Shown: positions 1,259-36,685 of the stretch, piece by piece
Position numbering within the stretch: the stretch's first letter is position 1
How the letters are laid out: each line of letters begins with the position of its first letter
Source of the DNA: Deltaproteobacteria bacterium
GTDB lineage: Bacteria > Desulfobacterota > Desulfobulbia > Desulfobulbales > Desulfurivibrionaceae
Length of the DNA stretch: 41,225 nt
Assembly: GCA_021811385.1 (NCBI GenBank)
Contig: JAJZPC010000016.1
Span: 1 to 41,225 of the forward strand
Direction: 5' to 3'
Program-made: the position numbers and the translations under genes
The notes under the pieces: generated by a model
What the model was told of the DNA's origin: nothing
Databases searched by the model: none
The model's input: the letters and a program-made list of their open reading frames with translations, nothing else

Positions 1259-1335
1259 TGGTCGGGATGAGAGGATTCGAACCTCCGACCCCGTGCTCCC
1301 GAAGCACGTGCTCTACCAGGCTGAGCCACATCCCG
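1259..1335 (-). tRNA. tRNA-Pro(CGG)
   Basis: A 77-nt cloverleaf on the minus strand. The acceptor stem pairs CGGGATG (1335-1329) with CATCCCG (1269-1263), followed by discriminator A and an encoded CCA (1261-1259). The anticodon arm CGTGC/GCACG encloses the loop TTCGGGA with anticodon CGG (1301-1299), reading CCG proline codons. The T arm contains GGTTCGAATCC. The sequence closely resembles other bacterial tRNA-Pro. It lies between the HU terminator and its own terminator, so it is probably a single-tRNA unit; no convincing promoter was found directly upstream. Confidence 0.97.
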
Positions 1336-27261: not shown

Positions 27262-28023
27262 ATGACGGGCGACGAATACATCCTCTCGATCCTCAAGAAA
27301 TACGAAGTCCCACGCGGGCCGGAATCTCCGGCGGAACAGGCAGCGGGCCGCATCGCCCCCAAGATACAACGCTGGGCAGGAGGATGGCTTGCCTCCCTGT
27401 CGCCTTCCGGTTCCTATGCAAAGCAAACCGGTGTGCACGGCGTAACCGACATGGATCTCTTCATCTCCCTAAAACCGGAGATGCCGGGAAGTGTAAAAAA
27501 AATCTACGACGAGCTGTTTACCCTGGCTGCCTTGCATGGCTGGAATCCCCGCCGTCAAAATGTTTCCATCGGCGTGTCCATCCATGGCGTGAACCTCGAC
27601 TTGATTCCAGGCCGGGGACAAGCAGGCTATGAAAACTCCCATGACCTGTACTGGCTCAAGTCCGATTCCCTGCGACAAACCGACGTGAATCTCCATGTGG
27701 ATACCGTCGTGAAATCACATCGCCTCCATGAAATCCAGGCCATCAAAATTTGGCGGCACATACATCAGCTTGAGTGGCCGTCGCTGTATCTTGATTTTTT
27801 TGTCATCAACGCCCTGACAGGAAGAGACACCGACTCCTTGGCGCACAATGTCCTGCATGTCCTTGATTCGATAGGGGAAGCCTTTGAAACGACCTGCATA
27901 GTCGACCCGGCCAACCCCGACAATGTCCTTTCAGACGACCTCACCGCGGAAGAGAAAAAAAACATCGCTGACCAGGCAAAAAAATCAGCGGCCGAGCAGC
28001 ATTGGGAGGATATCATCTGGTAA
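27262..28023 (+). CDS. Stand-alone OAS/CD-NTase-like nucleotidyltransferase
   Basis: A 253-residue Pol-beta-superfamily nucleotidyltransferase. The active-site GS motif is at 50-51 (SGSYAKQTG), the paired acidic residues are D63 and D65 (TDMDLFI), and the third is D113 (VNLDLIPGR). A following helical part includes AIKIWRH and LYLDFFVINAL. This order resembles class I CCA-adding enzymes, OAS1 and CD-NTases of anti-phage CBASS systems. All three catalytic acids are present, so it should be active. No effector, ubiquitin-like or HORMA genes are adjacent, so a CBASS assignment is not supported; a stand-alone RNA or nucleotide modifying role is equally possible. A GGGAAA ribosome site precedes the ATG. 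Confidence 0.75.
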   Translation: MTGDEYILSILKKYEVPRGPESPAEQAAGRIAPKIQRWAGGWLASLSPSGSYAKQTGVHGVTDMDLFISLKPEMPGSVKKIYDELFTLAALHGWNPRRQNVSIGVSIHGVNLDLIPGRGQAGYENSHDLYWLKSDSLRQTDVNLHVDTVVKSHRLHEIQAIKIWRHIHQLEWPSLYLDFFVINALTGRDTDSLAHNVLHVLDSIGEAFETTCIVDPANPDNVLSDDLTAEEKKNIADQAKKSAAEQHWEDIIW

Positions 28024-32750: not shown

Positions 32751-33014
32751 ATGGCGCAACCTGAACGGTTTCTTGGCGGTTGCCGAAACATACCCTTCCC
32801 ACCCGTGCCTTCCATGAAAAAAATCTGTGATTACTGTGGCGGTTCCGGCCAGATACAATTCTTCGCCGGGGTGAGCAGATTCTTCCTCTCCTGCGAGGAA
32901 TGCCCTCACTGCGCCGGGATCGGCTACGAACTCCCACCCGATGACACCACCGCCCAGGACAACCAAGACCCTTGCCCCGCGAAAAGATCTTCCTCCCGGA
33001 AGAGGTCCGGGTGA
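32751..33014 (+). CDS. Small protein with paired CxxCxGxG zinc-finger motifs
   Basis: An 87-residue frame with CDYCGGSGQ and CPHCAGIGY, the DnaJ-type CxxCxGxG motif twice, about 23 residues apart. One such pair can hold one zinc ion. The start is uncertain: ATG 32751, or the internal ATG 32814 giving a 66-residue protein beginning MKKICDYC. The C-terminus is Ser/Arg/Lys-rich. It ends 7 bp before the flavoprotein gene start, suggesting co-expression. Confidence 0.6.
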   Translation: MAQPERFLGGCRNIPFPPVPSMKKICDYCGGSGQIQFFAGVSRFFLSCEECPHCAGIGYELPPDDTTAQDNQDPCPAKRSSSRKRSG

Positions 33015-33021
33015 ACCCGCC

Positions 33022-34254
33022 ATGAGAGAGGAATCCAGGGTGGCGGTGGTCGGCGGCGGCCCCGCCGGACTCATGGCCGCCACCGTGCTCAGCGAGGCAG
33101 GCCTTGCGGTGGATATTTTCGATGCCAAGGGTTCGGCCGGCCGAAAATTCCTGGTTGCCGGTCGCGGCGGTCTGAACCTCACCCATTCGGAGCACGCCGA
33201 ACCCTTTGCCGGCCGCTACGGAAACAACGCCGAAACCTTCAAAAAGCTCCTGGCCGGTTTTTCCCCGGACGACCTGCGCGCCTGGCTGCGTGGCCTTGGG
33301 GTGGAAACCTTTGTCGGCACCAGCGGCCGGGTCTTTCCCAAGGAGGCCACCGCCGCCGGGATTCTAAAAATCTGGCTCGATGGTCTGGGCAGGCGCGGGG
33401 TCGAATTCCACTACCGCCATCGCTGGCAGGGGTTTTCCGAAAAAGGCGCCCCGCTTTTTCTTACCGAAGACGGCGAGCTCCTCGAATTTCCGGCCCGGGC
33501 CGTGCTTCTTGCCCTGGGCGGAGCAAGCTGGCCCCAAACCGGTTCCGATGGAAGCTGGACCCCGCTTCTCGCTGCCAGAGGCGTCCGGCTTGAACCGTTC
33601 CGGCCGGCAAACTGCGGGGTCGAAGTGGCGTGGTCCGAACATTTCCGCACCCGTTTCAGCGGCCGGCCACTCAAGAATATCTTGCTCCGCTGCTCCGACC
33701 GACAGGCCACCGGCGACGTGATCATCACCGCTCACGGCTTGGAAGGCGGCCCGGTCTATGCCTTGAGCGGCGTAATCCGCGATCGGTTGGAGAAAGAGAG
33801 GCCGGTTGCCGTTCTTCTCGATCTCAAACGCGATCTCCCGCAGGAACGGATTCGCGAAAGACTTGAACATCGCCGCGACAAGGAAAGCCTCGCCAATTTT
33901 CTCCGCAAGACACTACACCTCACCGGGCCGGCCTATTCGCTGCTCCGGGAAATCTGCCCGCCGGAAGATCTGAAAAACCCGGCAACGCTTGCCGGACATC
34001 TCAAGAATCTTTCCCTCCCCGTTATCAATACCAGGCCGCTTGCCGAGGCAATCTCCTCCGCCGGAGGCGTTACCTTTTCGGAGGTGAATGCGGACCTCAT
34101 GCTCCAAAAACTGCCGGGAGTATTCGTGGCCGGGGAAATGCTGGACTGGGAAGCGCCCACCGGGGGCTATCTGTTGCAAGGCGCCTTTACCACCGGGTAT
34201 CAGGCGGCCAGAGGCATGCTCAAATGGCTGGGCCACCCGACCCGCCGACAATAA
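33022..34254 (+). CDS. HI0933-like FAD-dependent oxidoreductase
   Basis: A 410-residue flavoprotein. The N-terminal Rossmann motif VAVVGGGPAGLMAA, then GSAGRKFLVAGRGGLNLTHSE (seen in part as GRKFLVAGRGGLNLTHS) and GRVFPKEATAAG are present. The C-terminal VFVAGEMLDWEAPTGGYLLQ and FTTGYQAARGM fit the HI0933/BaiN-like family, nearest to its PP_4765-type branch (inference). These proteins bind FAD; their substrates are mostly unknown. The ATG at 33022 is chosen because it directly precedes the Rossmann fold; an in-frame ATG lies 81 nt upstream inside the preceding gene. Confidence 0.85.
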   Translation: MREESRVAVVGGGPAGLMAATVLSEAGLAVDIFDAKGSAGRKFLVAGRGGLNLTHSEHAEPFAGRYGNNAETFKKLLAGFSPDDLRAWLRGLGVETFVGTSGRVFPKEATAAGILKIWLDGLGRRGVEFHYRHRWQGFSEKGAPLFLTEDGELLEFPARAVLLALGGASWPQTGSDGSWTPLLAARGVRLEPFRPANCGVEVAWSEHFRTRFSGRPLKNILLRCSDRQATGDVIITAHGLEGGPVYALSGVIRDRLEKERPVAVLLDLKRDLPQERIRERLEHRRDKESLANFLRKTLHLTGPAYSLLREICPPEDLKNPATLAGHLKNLSLPVINTRPLAEAISSAGGVTFSEVNADLMLQKLPGVFVAGEMLDWEAPTGGYLLQGAFTTGYQAARGMLKWLGHPTRRQ

Positions 34255-34269
34255 TCCCCATGCGGTTCC

Positions 34270-34400
34270 GGGCCTGGACAGCTGCCTGGTCGGCGATTTC
34301 TCCGCTTGCAATCAAAACAAATTTATCGGACAATCCATCCTGTTATAATCAGTCGCTGTTGTGGTATAAATAAAGATCGGGCCGGGATACTGTCCAGCCC
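34270..34400. repeat. Inverted repeat flanking the selenoprotein promoter region
   Basis: GGGCCTGGACAG (34270-34281) pairs with CTGTCCAGCCC (34390-34400) with one bulged base; 108 nt lie between, including the TATAAT at 34344-34349. Meaning unknown. Confidence 0.4.
34322..34349 (+). promoter_or_regulatory. Candidate promoter of the selenoprotein gene
   Basis: A perfect TATAAT (34344-34349) with TTTATC 16 nt upstream (34322-34327), about 80 nt before the selenoprotein start. The -35 is weak. Confidence 0.35.
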
Positions 34401-34429
34401 CTAAAAACATTTTTTCACACGGAAACCCC

Positions 34430-34654
34430 ATGAAAATCACCATCACCTACTGCACCCAATGAAACTATCTGCCACGGGCTTCCAGGCTGGAAGCCGAACT
34501 GAAAAAACAACTCGCTGCCGAGGTTGAACTCATTCCCGGCTCATCGGGCATCTACGAGATCATTGCCGATGGCCGCCTGATTTTTTCCAAGCAGGCAGCC
34601 GGCCGTTTTGCCGAACCCGAGGAAATCATCAGCCTCATCCGGAGCCACGGGTAA
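34430..34654 (+). CDS. SelW/Rdx-like selenoprotein (in-frame TGA read as selenocysteine)
   Basis: Reading the TGA at 34460-34462 as selenocysteine gives a 74-residue protein: MKITITYCTQU, then NYLPRASRLEAELKKQL, ending ISLIRSHG before TAA. It has the redox motif CxxU (residues 8-11) in the form YCTQU-NYLPRA, the Rdx-family pattern, where the strand-CxxC/U-NYxPRAxxL opening is diagnostic. Length fits the short bacterial members. Downstream residues keep the family's EL..L.P...G.YEI..DG..IFSK...GRF.EP.EI. layout. A SECIS-like hairpin follows the TGA at the correct distance. A standard gene caller stops at TGA and misses it. The function is thioredoxin-like redox; the partner is unknown. It stands about 175 bp after the flavoprotein and 28 bp before the FHA-cyclase gene. 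Confidence 0.9.
34460..34495 (+). promoter_or_regulatory. SECIS-like element for the selenoprotein
   Basis: After the TGA, a perfect stem GGCTTCCA (34477-34484) / TGGAAGCC (34488-34495) with a G-starting loop. The apical loop is about 22 nt after the TGA, within the 16-37 nt window known for bacterial SECIS hairpins bound by SelB. Confidence 0.8.
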
Positions 34655-34681
34655 CGGGATCCCCTTTTGACGACCAAGACC

Positions 34682-35677
34682 ATGCCATCGGAAACACCAG
34701 CGACCCTCACCCTTCTCGATGCTCAGGACACCGGCGAGCACCGCTGGCTGCTCAACGGCAACACCACCTATACCCTGGGCCGGGTGACCAGCACCGATAT
34801 CACGCTTCCCTATTCCTGGGTGTCCCGGAAACACGCCATGATTCAAAGGGAAGAAAATGGCCGCTTCAATCTCCTGGACCTGGGAAGCTCAAACGGCACC
34901 TTTCTCAACGGCCGGAGAATCCATACCCCCGCCACCCTGCAAAACGGCGACTGTATCGGCATCGGCAGCACCCGTCTCCTGTTCCATCAGGATGCGATCC
35001 CTGTCCGGCCATCGCCGGTCCCCGGCCCGGACCTCGATGAAATGACCGTTGCCTTTGTCCAAAAGCAGATCATCACCATCCTGATCTGCGACATCCATGA
35101 CTTCACCAAGCTTTCGGAAACCATGGGTGACCAGTGGGTTTCCCAGCTTCTTCAACATTGGACCGGCGGGGTCAGCAAGCTGGTGCAGAAACATAACGGG
35201 ATTGTCGACAAATTCATCGGCGACGCGGTGATGGCCCTGTGGGCCGGGCCAAACCTTGGGGACAACATCCACCAAGCCCTGAAGACCGCCATTGCCATCA
35301 ACACCTTCACCAGCAACCTCAAGAAAAAGGTTCCGGATCTTCCCTGGTCACTACAGATCGGAGCGGCGCTCAACACCGGCGAGGCAATGATGGGAAACCT
35401 TGCCCAGGACGGCAACTACACCGTGGTCGGGGACGTGGTCAATGTGGCGTTTCGCCTGGAAAACATGACCAACCGCCAGGATGATCTGGACATTGTCATG
35501 GGCGGCGACGCAGCCGCACACCTCCTGGAGCCGGAGATTTTCTTCAAGAAATTTTCCTTCCAGCTGAAGGGAAAACAAGGGGCTGTCGAGGCTTATGGCT
35601 GCAGCTTCGCCAAGCTTTCAACCTATCTGGGGCAGAGCGCTGGGCGGCTTGAAGTCCAAGACACCCCGGCGGATTAA
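34682..35677 (+). CDS. FHA domain-adenylate/guanylate cyclase (class III)
   Basis: A 331-residue cytoplasmic protein. The N-terminal FHA domain shows YTLGRVTSTDI, SWVSRKHAMI and DLGSSNGTFLNGRRI, so it should bind phosphothreonine. The class III cyclase domain starts near 125. Metal-binding aspartates lie in ICDIHDFTK and KFIGDAVMALW, with the transition-state Asn/Arg in VGDVVNVAFRLE. Catalytic residues appear complete, and the KFIGD lysine favours ATP as substrate. The ATG at 34682 is preferred; a TTG 15 nt upstream is possible. It follows the selenoprotein and precedes the HD-GYP gene. Confidence 0.87.
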   Translation: MPSETPATLTLLDAQDTGEHRWLLNGNTTYTLGRVTSTDITLPYSWVSRKHAMIQREENGRFNLLDLGSSNGTFLNGRRIHTPATLQNGDCIGIGSTRLLFHQDAIPVRPSPVPGPDLDEMTVAFVQKQIITILICDIHDFTKLSETMGDQWVSQLLQHWTGGVSKLVQKHNGIVDKFIGDAVMALWAGPNLGDNIHQALKTAIAINTFTSNLKKKVPDLPWSLQIGAALNTGEAMMGNLAQDGNYTVVGDVVNVAFRLENMTNRQDDLDIVMGGDAAAHLLEPEIFFKKFSFQLKGKQGAVEAYGCSFAKLSTYLGQSAGRLEVQDTPAD

Positions 35678-35725: not shown

Positions 35726-36685
35726 ATGATCACCGAATCCAGAAAATTTATCCGGATCGTCACCGATTATCTCCTGGCGGAAGACAGGAAGATCGATTTC
35801 AACATCTACACCAAGCCTCCCAACAGCAACAAACCCCTCCTGTTGATCGCGGCCAACACCAATATCGCCGACATCAAGGAGACCCTTGCCAGAAAGAGCC
35901 ACGGTCCGCTCTACATTACCCAGGAGTCAGCCAAGAAATTCGAGAACTTCATGGAAGACTCCCTGGATGCCATTATCAGAAACAGGGATATCCCCCTTGA
36001 GCAAAAATCCTCGGTTGTGCACTCCTGCGCTAAAAACATCATCCGGGATGTGTTCGAGGATCCCCGCAGCGGCAAAAACATCTCCCGCGCCAGAAACGTA
36101 ACCAGCAACATCATCGATCTTACCCTGACGGACACCCAATCCATCCGCCACTTGCTTCGCCTTGGTTCCCACGACTACTACACCTTTTCCCACTGCGTGA
36201 ACGTCGCGGTTTTCGGCATCGGCCTCTGGCTGATGATCCGCAAGGGAGACAACACCGAACTCCACGATTTTGCCCTGGGCTGCATCCTGCACGATGTGGG
36301 AAAAAGCCAGATCGTGGACTCCATCCTGAACAAGCCGGGGAAACTCGACTTCGAGGAATTCGAAATCATCAAAAAACACCCGGGCCAGGGCCACTGGCTC
36401 ATGGCCAAGCACGCATCCGAAATCACCCTCGACGTGATCATGCACCACCACGAACAAATCAACGGCAACGGCTACCCCCACGGGCTCAAAGGCGACCAGA
36501 TTTCCGACAACGCCAAAATCGCCACCATTGCGGACGTCTACGACGCCCTGACCACCAACCGCCCATACGGCGGGGCCCGGCGCCCCCTCAACGCCCTGAC
36601 CCTGATGAAGGAAGAGATGGTCGGCCACTTCGAGCAAAAAAGGTTTGAGGATTTCATTCTGTTTTTGGGCGGGAGGTCGGCCTGA
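35726..36685 (+). CDS. HD-GYP domain c-di-GMP phosphodiesterase
   Basis: A 319-residue protein. The N-terminal 130 residues are unassigned (DUF3391-like region possible), followed by an HD-GYP domain: HCVNVAVFG, the HD pair H189-D190 (LHDVGKSQIVD), and HHHE at 240-243 followed by GNGYPHGLKGDQI. These are the residues needed for metal binding and hydrolysis of c-di-GMP to pGpG/GMP. It lies 48 bp after the FHA-cyclase, so the cell may link cAMP and c-di-GMP signals here. The ATG at 35726 is preceded by a weak ribosome site. Confidence 0.88.
   Translation: MITESRKFIRIVTDYLLAEDRKIDFNIYTKPPNSNKPLLLIAANTNIADIKETLARKSHGPLYITQESAKKFENFMEDSLDAIIRNRDIPLEQKSSVVHSCAKNIIRDVFEDPRSGKNISRARNVTSNIIDLTLTDTQSIRHLLRLGSHDYYTFSHCVNVAVFGIGLWLMIRKGDNTELHDFALGCILHDVGKSQIVDSILNKPGKLDFEEFEIIKKHPGQGHWLMAKHASEITLDVIMHHHEQINGNGYPHGLKGDQISDNAKIATIADVYDALTTNRPYGGARRPLNALTLMKEEMVGHFEQKRFEDFILFLGGRSA

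Follow-up and report, generated by a model that had tools for sequence, protein, structure and literature searches.

A reading frame on the forward strand of the window (the whole stretch of 41,225 nucleotides analysed) very likely encodes a selenoprotein of the SelW-like family, with what looks like a stop codon almost certainly specifying selenocysteine (Sec), as judged from the sequence and its relatives. Since the protein family is matched on both sides of the TGA, the TGA itself is conserved and the stem behind it covaries, the observation lies far beyond chance. The gene is real but nothing out of the ordinary within its family of bacterial selenoproteins, which has been known for about twenty years. 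Its parts are the following:

34430-34654, forward strand: predicted selW-like (Rdx family) selenoprotein gene with Sec at residue 11, assigned from Rdx, NF041051 and the TGA in all 40 named loci
34451-34453, forward strand: TGC codon for Cys8, the opening residue of CxxU, invariant across the 14-row alignment A1
34460-34462, forward strand: TGA predicted to be read as selenocysteine, residue 11, with TGA in all 40 named loci and Cys opposite in PDB 2FA8
34477-34495, forward strand: bacterial SECIS-like hairpin, assigned from its fold, its covariation and its fit to the bSECIS model

The first-pass annotation described a 75-codon frame holding a single TGA at the redox position of a CxxU motif, flanked by family-consistent sequence, and this description agrees with what we find. 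The frame consists of 74 codons plus TAA with a lone TGA at codon 11, and its translation reads MKITITYCTQ, the TGA, NYLPRASRLEAELKKQLAAEVELIPGSSGIYEIIADGRLIFSKQAAGRFAEPEEIISLIRSHG and the terminal TAA, so that the TGA occupies the Sec position of the CxxU motif C8-T-Q-U11. For the family searches the TGA was entered as Cys in the protein. The Pfam family Rdx (PF10262) matched residues 2–71 with an E-value of 1.9e-21, covering most of the protein and both sides of the TGA. The NCBIfam model NF041051, named 'SelT/SelW/SelH family (seleno)protein', gave 94.9 bits against a cut-off of 88 (E 2.6e-27), and TIGR02174 (CXXU_selWTH) gave 59.1 bits against a cut-off of 34.2 (E 4e-16). Atu0228 (PDB 2FA8), a chain of 105 residues, also aligns over residues 2–71 (E 7.7e-12) and has CTQC where the present protein has CTQU; Cys is likewise found at the aligned Sec position in PDB 2OKA. 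It had also been claimed that ordinary gene finding would miss the gene. This is now true in part only: a plain ORF caller would cut the frame to 10 codons, and reading the raw sequence recovers the selenoprotein, but NF041051 scores above its cut-off.

To follow the TGA through other genomes, genome contigs were searched with six peptide patterns that all avoid the TGA codon, yielding 40 named loci, one of which (L039) lies in the genome of Desulfosediminicola flagellatus. The TGA is present at codon 11 in all 40 of them. According to their record titles, these loci include Desulfobulbaceae and other Deltaproteobacteria, Planctomycetota, Acidobacteria, Myxococcales, a betaproteobacterium, Anaerolineales and Sulfurovum; almost all are metagenome bins, and the loci are partly non-independent (L025 equals L026 in gene DNA, and L050–L054 are near copies). 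The metagenome bin JAPLJH may be mixed: it contains the gene twice, as L023 and as L026, and the gene DNA of L026 is that of L025, which comes from a different bin of the same lake series. Within the window's own family, 25 of 27 genomes (own included) had matches, 26 in number, all with the TGA and one with a TAA in addition; this set largely duplicates the named loci, since of 19 family loci compared, 16 share their gene DNA with one of them. An even draw of 297 genomes from the phylum gave 42 with a match, and the TGA was present in 39 of these and absent from three. The codon context was read for 30 of the 39 TGA forms (L090, which is the window, and L091–L119), and in all 30 the TGA lies within C-x-x-U. 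The three stop-free matches, L120, L121 and L122, are Cys forms, with CTQC once and CGVC twice. Thus Cys homologues align across the TGA both in Atu0228 and in 3 of the 42 phylum matches, in accordance with the earlier statement that the Rdx/SelW family has Sec or Cys at this place.

A few of these matches deserve mention in their own right. The CGVC form is divergent and occurs in two genomes from the same genus, G100 and G133, in both of which selA and selB score over their cut-offs, along with a further selB-like match over the cut-off in each. An extra TAG or TAA accompanies the TGA within the matched stretch at L116 (genome G138, TAG) and at G005:C292:184-408, and these two may be decaying copies or assembly errors.

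The codons behind the TGA were examined for selective constraint. Over codons 12–71, comparison with 16 near relatives (L019–L034) gave dN values of 0.059–0.138 and dS values of 0.381–0.871, and the variable columns numbered 23, 17 and 54 at codon positions 1, 2 and 3, respectively (60 columns each). For codons 2–10, before the TGA, the corresponding numbers were 4, 3 and 7 (9 each). The low dN relative to dS and the third-position variability indicate that translation continues in this frame beyond the TGA, and they point to strong purifying selection downstream of the TGA. These data bear directly on the notion that the TGA is a nonsense mutation or a sequencing error in a Cys protein, i.e. 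that the frame is a pseudogene or an artefact. At first sight a single stop in a short frame does resemble a pseudogene, and in an assembly fragmented into 108 contigs an error is conceivable. However, the same TGA stands at codon 11 in every named locus, a few near copies among them, and the constraint behind it is strong. We consider a pseudogene or sequencing error exceedingly unlikely, and reject it on the ground that the TGA is conserved in separate genomes.

With regard to the hairpin, the first-pass annotation reported a perfect 8-bp stem with a G-containing loop 22 nt past the TGA, and the coordinates bear this out. Positions 34477–34484 (GGCTTCCA) pair with positions 34488–34495 (TGGAAGCC) around the loop GGC (34485–34487), the stem starting 14 nt and the loop 22 nt from the TGA, with a minimum free energy (MFE) of −13.2 kcal/mol. 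Taken alone, this hairpin proves little, being no better than chance: compared with shuffled sequences its fold had a z-score of −0.80, with 42 of 200 shuffles equally good, and of the 1291 TGAs that the two strands of the window contain, 41, counting the present one, have a comparable stem (at least 8 bp, at an allowed place). No Rfam family was matched by the hairpin region, even with a lax threshold. A search with RF00031, which we take to be the eukaryotic type of SECIS, gave no match at the window and none in 14 controls, and was therefore uninformative.

A different picture emerges from the alignment of the hairpin, comprising 41 sequences including the window, 39 of them distinct. The proportion of paired cells was 91.7% versus 81.6% in shuffled alignments, the cells changed on both sides numbered 27 versus 8.8, and the covariation score was 0.286 versus 0.114; none of 500 shuffles reached the observed value in any of these three measures. 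When the partners were slid by 1–3 columns, only 24.7–48.7% of the cells were paired and the covariation scores dropped to 0.020–0.121. One of the five measures was weak, namely the number of pairs changed on both sides, which was 4, was reached by 9 of 500 shuffles and rose to 5 upon a slide of +3. Codon constraint may favour some of the pairs, but the pairing of columns 21 and 33 falls on third codon positions, and these two columns pair in all 41 sequences (TA in 25, CG in 13, GC in 2 and TG in 1). Pairing is lost at 18–36 in 9 of 39 sequences, at 22–32 in 8 and at 19–35 in 7. The first loop base is G in all 41 sequences, the loops being GGC (20), GTC (12), GGT (4), GTT (4) and GTG (1). In 36 of the 41 sequences the 19-nt hairpin passes a limit of −7.5 kcal/mol, in the other 5 it is weaker, and the locus L058 is without this stem.

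The limit just mentioned belongs to the bSECIS model, which, according to the available portion of PMC13188914, demands an apical loop of 3–9 nt on an upper stem of 4–16 bp, a G within the first two positions of the loop, with G or U frequently next, a distance of 16–37 nt from UGA to loop and an MFE of −7.5 kcal/mol or lower. The hairpin of the window satisfies all four constraints as set out there, with a 3-nt loop on an 8-bp stem, GGC, 22 nt and −13.2 kcal/mol, respectively.

Next we considered whether the genome carries the machinery for selenocysteine insertion. The first-pass annotation held that the organism uses selenocysteine and named selA, selB, selC and selD as the genes by which this could be checked. 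The assembly has 2.6 Mb in 108 contigs and is 75.1% complete. Profile matches over the curated cut-offs were obtained for selB (359.7 bits), selA (619.2 bits) and selD (380.1 bits), whereas selC was not found in this incomplete assembly. The selD gene (L016, C16:42594-43517) itself has an in-frame TGA, situated within STVKAAGUAAKLSPGDLDQLL; the motif KAAGUAAK is presumably the Sec/Cys site of the SelD family, and selD is thus likely to be a second selenoprotein gene of this genome. In the phylum draw, 39 genomes have the TGA form; 38 of these exceed the cut-off for selA and 35 for selB, the exceptions being G075 (below for both) and G086, G105 and G108 (below for selB); of the genomes with a Cys form, G118 had neither gene over the cut-off, in contrast to G100 and G133. 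It should be underlined that this co-occurrence was counted in genomes that have the gene, and that it therefore shows the machinery to be present but establishes no association. Of the two findings that the first-pass annotation named as refuting its reading, a genome devoid of sel genes and a lack of Cys/Sec homologues aligned across the TGA, neither was made, and its reading is supported: the organism very probably decodes UGA as selenocysteine.

The missing selC was pursued further. The initial tRNA-Sec search of the own assembly scored 150 of 384 candidates, and its six matches were all below the cut-off; according to ARAGORN these six are ordinary tRNAs, and they were discarded. A letter pattern fitting both kinds of gene seen in the relatives had one match in the own assembly, which is no tRNA by its letters (the pattern first used required a longer gap than canonical selC has, and the result is that of the corrected pattern). 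In the genus set, consisting of 17 genomes including the own, a tRNA-Sec match over the cut-off was present in 15 genomes, in 14 of them with the canonical length of 94 nt, and ARAGORN called tRNA-SeC (tca) in all ten canonical-length loci given to it; the own genome and G017 had no tRNA-Sec match over the cut-off. In both G023 and G024, a tRNA-Asn/tRNA-Pro pair and a tRNA-Met come before selC. The Asn/Pro pair is also present on contig C97 of the own assembly, which aligns at 86–87% identity, and the first base of this contig is about 2 kb short of the place of selC. Since C97 ends that far short of the syntenic selC, the absence of the gene is best read as due to a break in the assembly.

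The machinery also bears on the reading that TGA has been reassigned throughout the genome, for instance to Trp or Gly, with no selenocysteine involved. The frame would indeed be open with TGA read as any residue. However, TGA terminates 17 of 33 window frames that were picked by hand from the ORF list as likely genes, Cys stands opposite the TGA in the solved homologues, and the presence of selA, selB and selD speaks against mere reassignment. We reject a genome-wide reassignment, the probability of which is close to nil, in view of the picked frames that terminate in TGA.

Three relatives, G009, G019 and G020, have a further tRNA-Sec-like match of 100 nt scoring 60.7–61.3 bits, and in G020 this kind is the sole tRNA-Sec match over the cut-off. 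These 100-nt tRNA genes (L126–L128, L129–L131) are located at G009:C4:34504-34603 (forward strand), G019:C260:14781-14880 (reverse strand) and G020:C98:3723-3822 (forward strand). Their letters show a TTCAA anticodon loop (UCA anticodon) and ends that pair over 8 bp with A-U first; ARAGORN calls nothing at the three loci. Each of them directly precedes a frame with CNWCCY, which we take to be MvhD-like, and follows a frame that we take to be HdrA-like. The 100-nt UCA tRNA resembles the selC* tRNA-Cys of Desulfobacterales, for which the available portion of PMC7609411 gives an A1:U72 pair and an opal anticodon. This raises the alternative that a tRNA of the selC* type (a tRNA-Sec-like tRNA-Cys with UCA anticodon) inserts cysteine at the UGA, which would turn the motif into CxxC. 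In its favour, the three relatives carry such a selC*-like 100-nt UCA tRNA, and this tRNA may carry Cys according to the same portion of PMC7609411. In contrast, the canonical-length tRNA-Sec is commoner in the genus set (14 of 17 genomes versus 3 of 17 for the 100-nt kind), selA is present in the own genome and in nearly all phylum genomes with the TGA form (38 of 39), and the fit of the hairpin to the bSECIS model, as far as PMC13188914 sets it out, argues against cysteine insertion. A pattern fitting the genes of the three relatives found no selC*-like tRNA in the own, incomplete assembly. Decoding as cysteine is accordingly rated as very unlikely, and decoding as selenocysteine is the reading we retain.

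Members of this family have been described before. The available text of PMC1794560, which put SelW-like selenoproteins of Deltaproteobacteria in print by 2006, lists Desulfotalea psychrophila and Geobacter sulfurreducens, as well as Symbiobacterium thermophilum in its Table 4. The present gene shares with them the family, the CxxU motif and, in part, the Deltaproteobacteria as then named, and adds a further species. The same portion of the paper reports few or no Cys homologues of the family in Sec-using organisms, which agrees with the TGA in 39 of 42 matches of our phylum draw. The SELENOW-like prokaryotic selenoprotein in Table 1 of PMC13188914 (PF10262, CxxU, one Sec) has the same Pfam family and motif, and no difference is seen at the level of that table. 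In the Sargasso Sea data, according to the part of PMC1088965 at hand, the SelW-like family was the most abundant selenoprotein family with 48 genes; these are alike in having a bacterial SECIS right after the TGA, but they come from other organisms, in a marine metagenome. A narrow literature search combining Desulfurivibrio and selenoprotein found no paper on the subject, and we make no claim that the gene was unreported. The gene leaves the picture of bacterial selenoproteins unchanged; the known family gains one more member with good support, together with an alignment of 41 SECIS sequences that covaries.

By the established bacterial Sec pathway, SelA would make Sec-tRNA(Sec) using selenophosphate from SelD, and SelB would bind the hairpin and bring the Sec-tRNA to the UGA on the ribosome. 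The product would be a protein of 74 residues with the motif Cys8-Thr-Gln-Sec11. Judging from the family, it would adopt a thioredoxin-like fold and is predicted to be a small thiol/selenol oxidoreductase in which Cys8 and Sec11 form the redox pair.

The genes surrounding the selW-like gene were compared among the 40 loci by tblastn with E-values up to 1e-8, the loci extending at most 3 kb to each side and some being shorter. The neighbours are the following:

32941-34254, forward strand: HI0933-like FAD flavoprotein (TIGR03862), upstream neighbour with matches in 13 of 40 loci, not claimed as a functional part
34682-35677, forward strand: protein with an FHA domain and an adenylate/guanylate cyclase domain, 27 nt downstream, matches in 16 of 40 loci
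35726-36685, forward strand: HD-domain protein, the next gene, matches in 12 of 40 loci

All neighbour matches in the loci are on the strand of the selW-like gene. The flavoprotein gene lies 175 nt upstream of it, and an alternative TTG start for the FHA-cyclase gene is open at 34667. A scan of positions 34200–34720 revealed no sigma-70-like promoter site and one terminator-like site, on the opposite strand, versus a mean of 0.7 in shuffled sequences. It is possible that the selW-like gene and the FHA-cyclase gene are co-transcribed.

This arrangement suggests an addition to, rather than an alternative for, the selenoprotein reading: the main role of the Sec protein might lie in signalling, in that it would sense the redox state and act on the FHA-cyclase and HD-domain proteins, thereby serving as redox input to a run of signalling genes kept among relatives. 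In support, the FHA-cyclase gene is only 27 nt away on the same strand and follows in 16 of the 40 loci, with the HD-domain gene in 12, and the link extends slightly past the close relatives (L035, L036 and L049, at 43–66% identity). In addition, an interaction between the Sec of mammalian SELENOW and 14-3-3beta is reported in PMC8508763. Against it, 24 of the 40 loci are without an FHA-cyclase match, although these are mostly distant ones and some are too short to show it, and the shared neighbourhood may reflect shared history only. It also counts against a role in signalling that FHA and 14-3-3 are unrelated folds. We regard a redox input of this kind as unlikely; were it true, the SelW-like family of bacteria would gain a physiological role. 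The signalling-gene neighbourhood is a modest lead to function, no more.

Some further observations concern the rest of the window. Read-through frames of 11 intergenic gaps in the window, inspected by eye and unsystematically, contained no other convincing selenoprotein. A frame of 66 codons at 32814-33014 (forward strand) encodes CxxCxGxG-like repeats (MKKICDYCGGSGQ...CPHCAGIGYELP) and looks like the gene of a DnaJ-type zinc-ribbon protein; it overlaps the listed start of the flavoprotein gene at 32941, the real start of which may be near 33022. The protein of 253 residues encoded at 27262-28023 (forward strand) had no Pfam match and scored far below the cut-off with the NCBIfam CBASS cyclase models, but a PADLOC oligonucleotide-cyclase model matches it from end to end (E 5.1e-75), and it looks like a CD-NTase-like nucleotidyltransferase. 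Finally, a tRNA at 1262-1335 (reverse strand) is the window's only Rfam match at gathering score.
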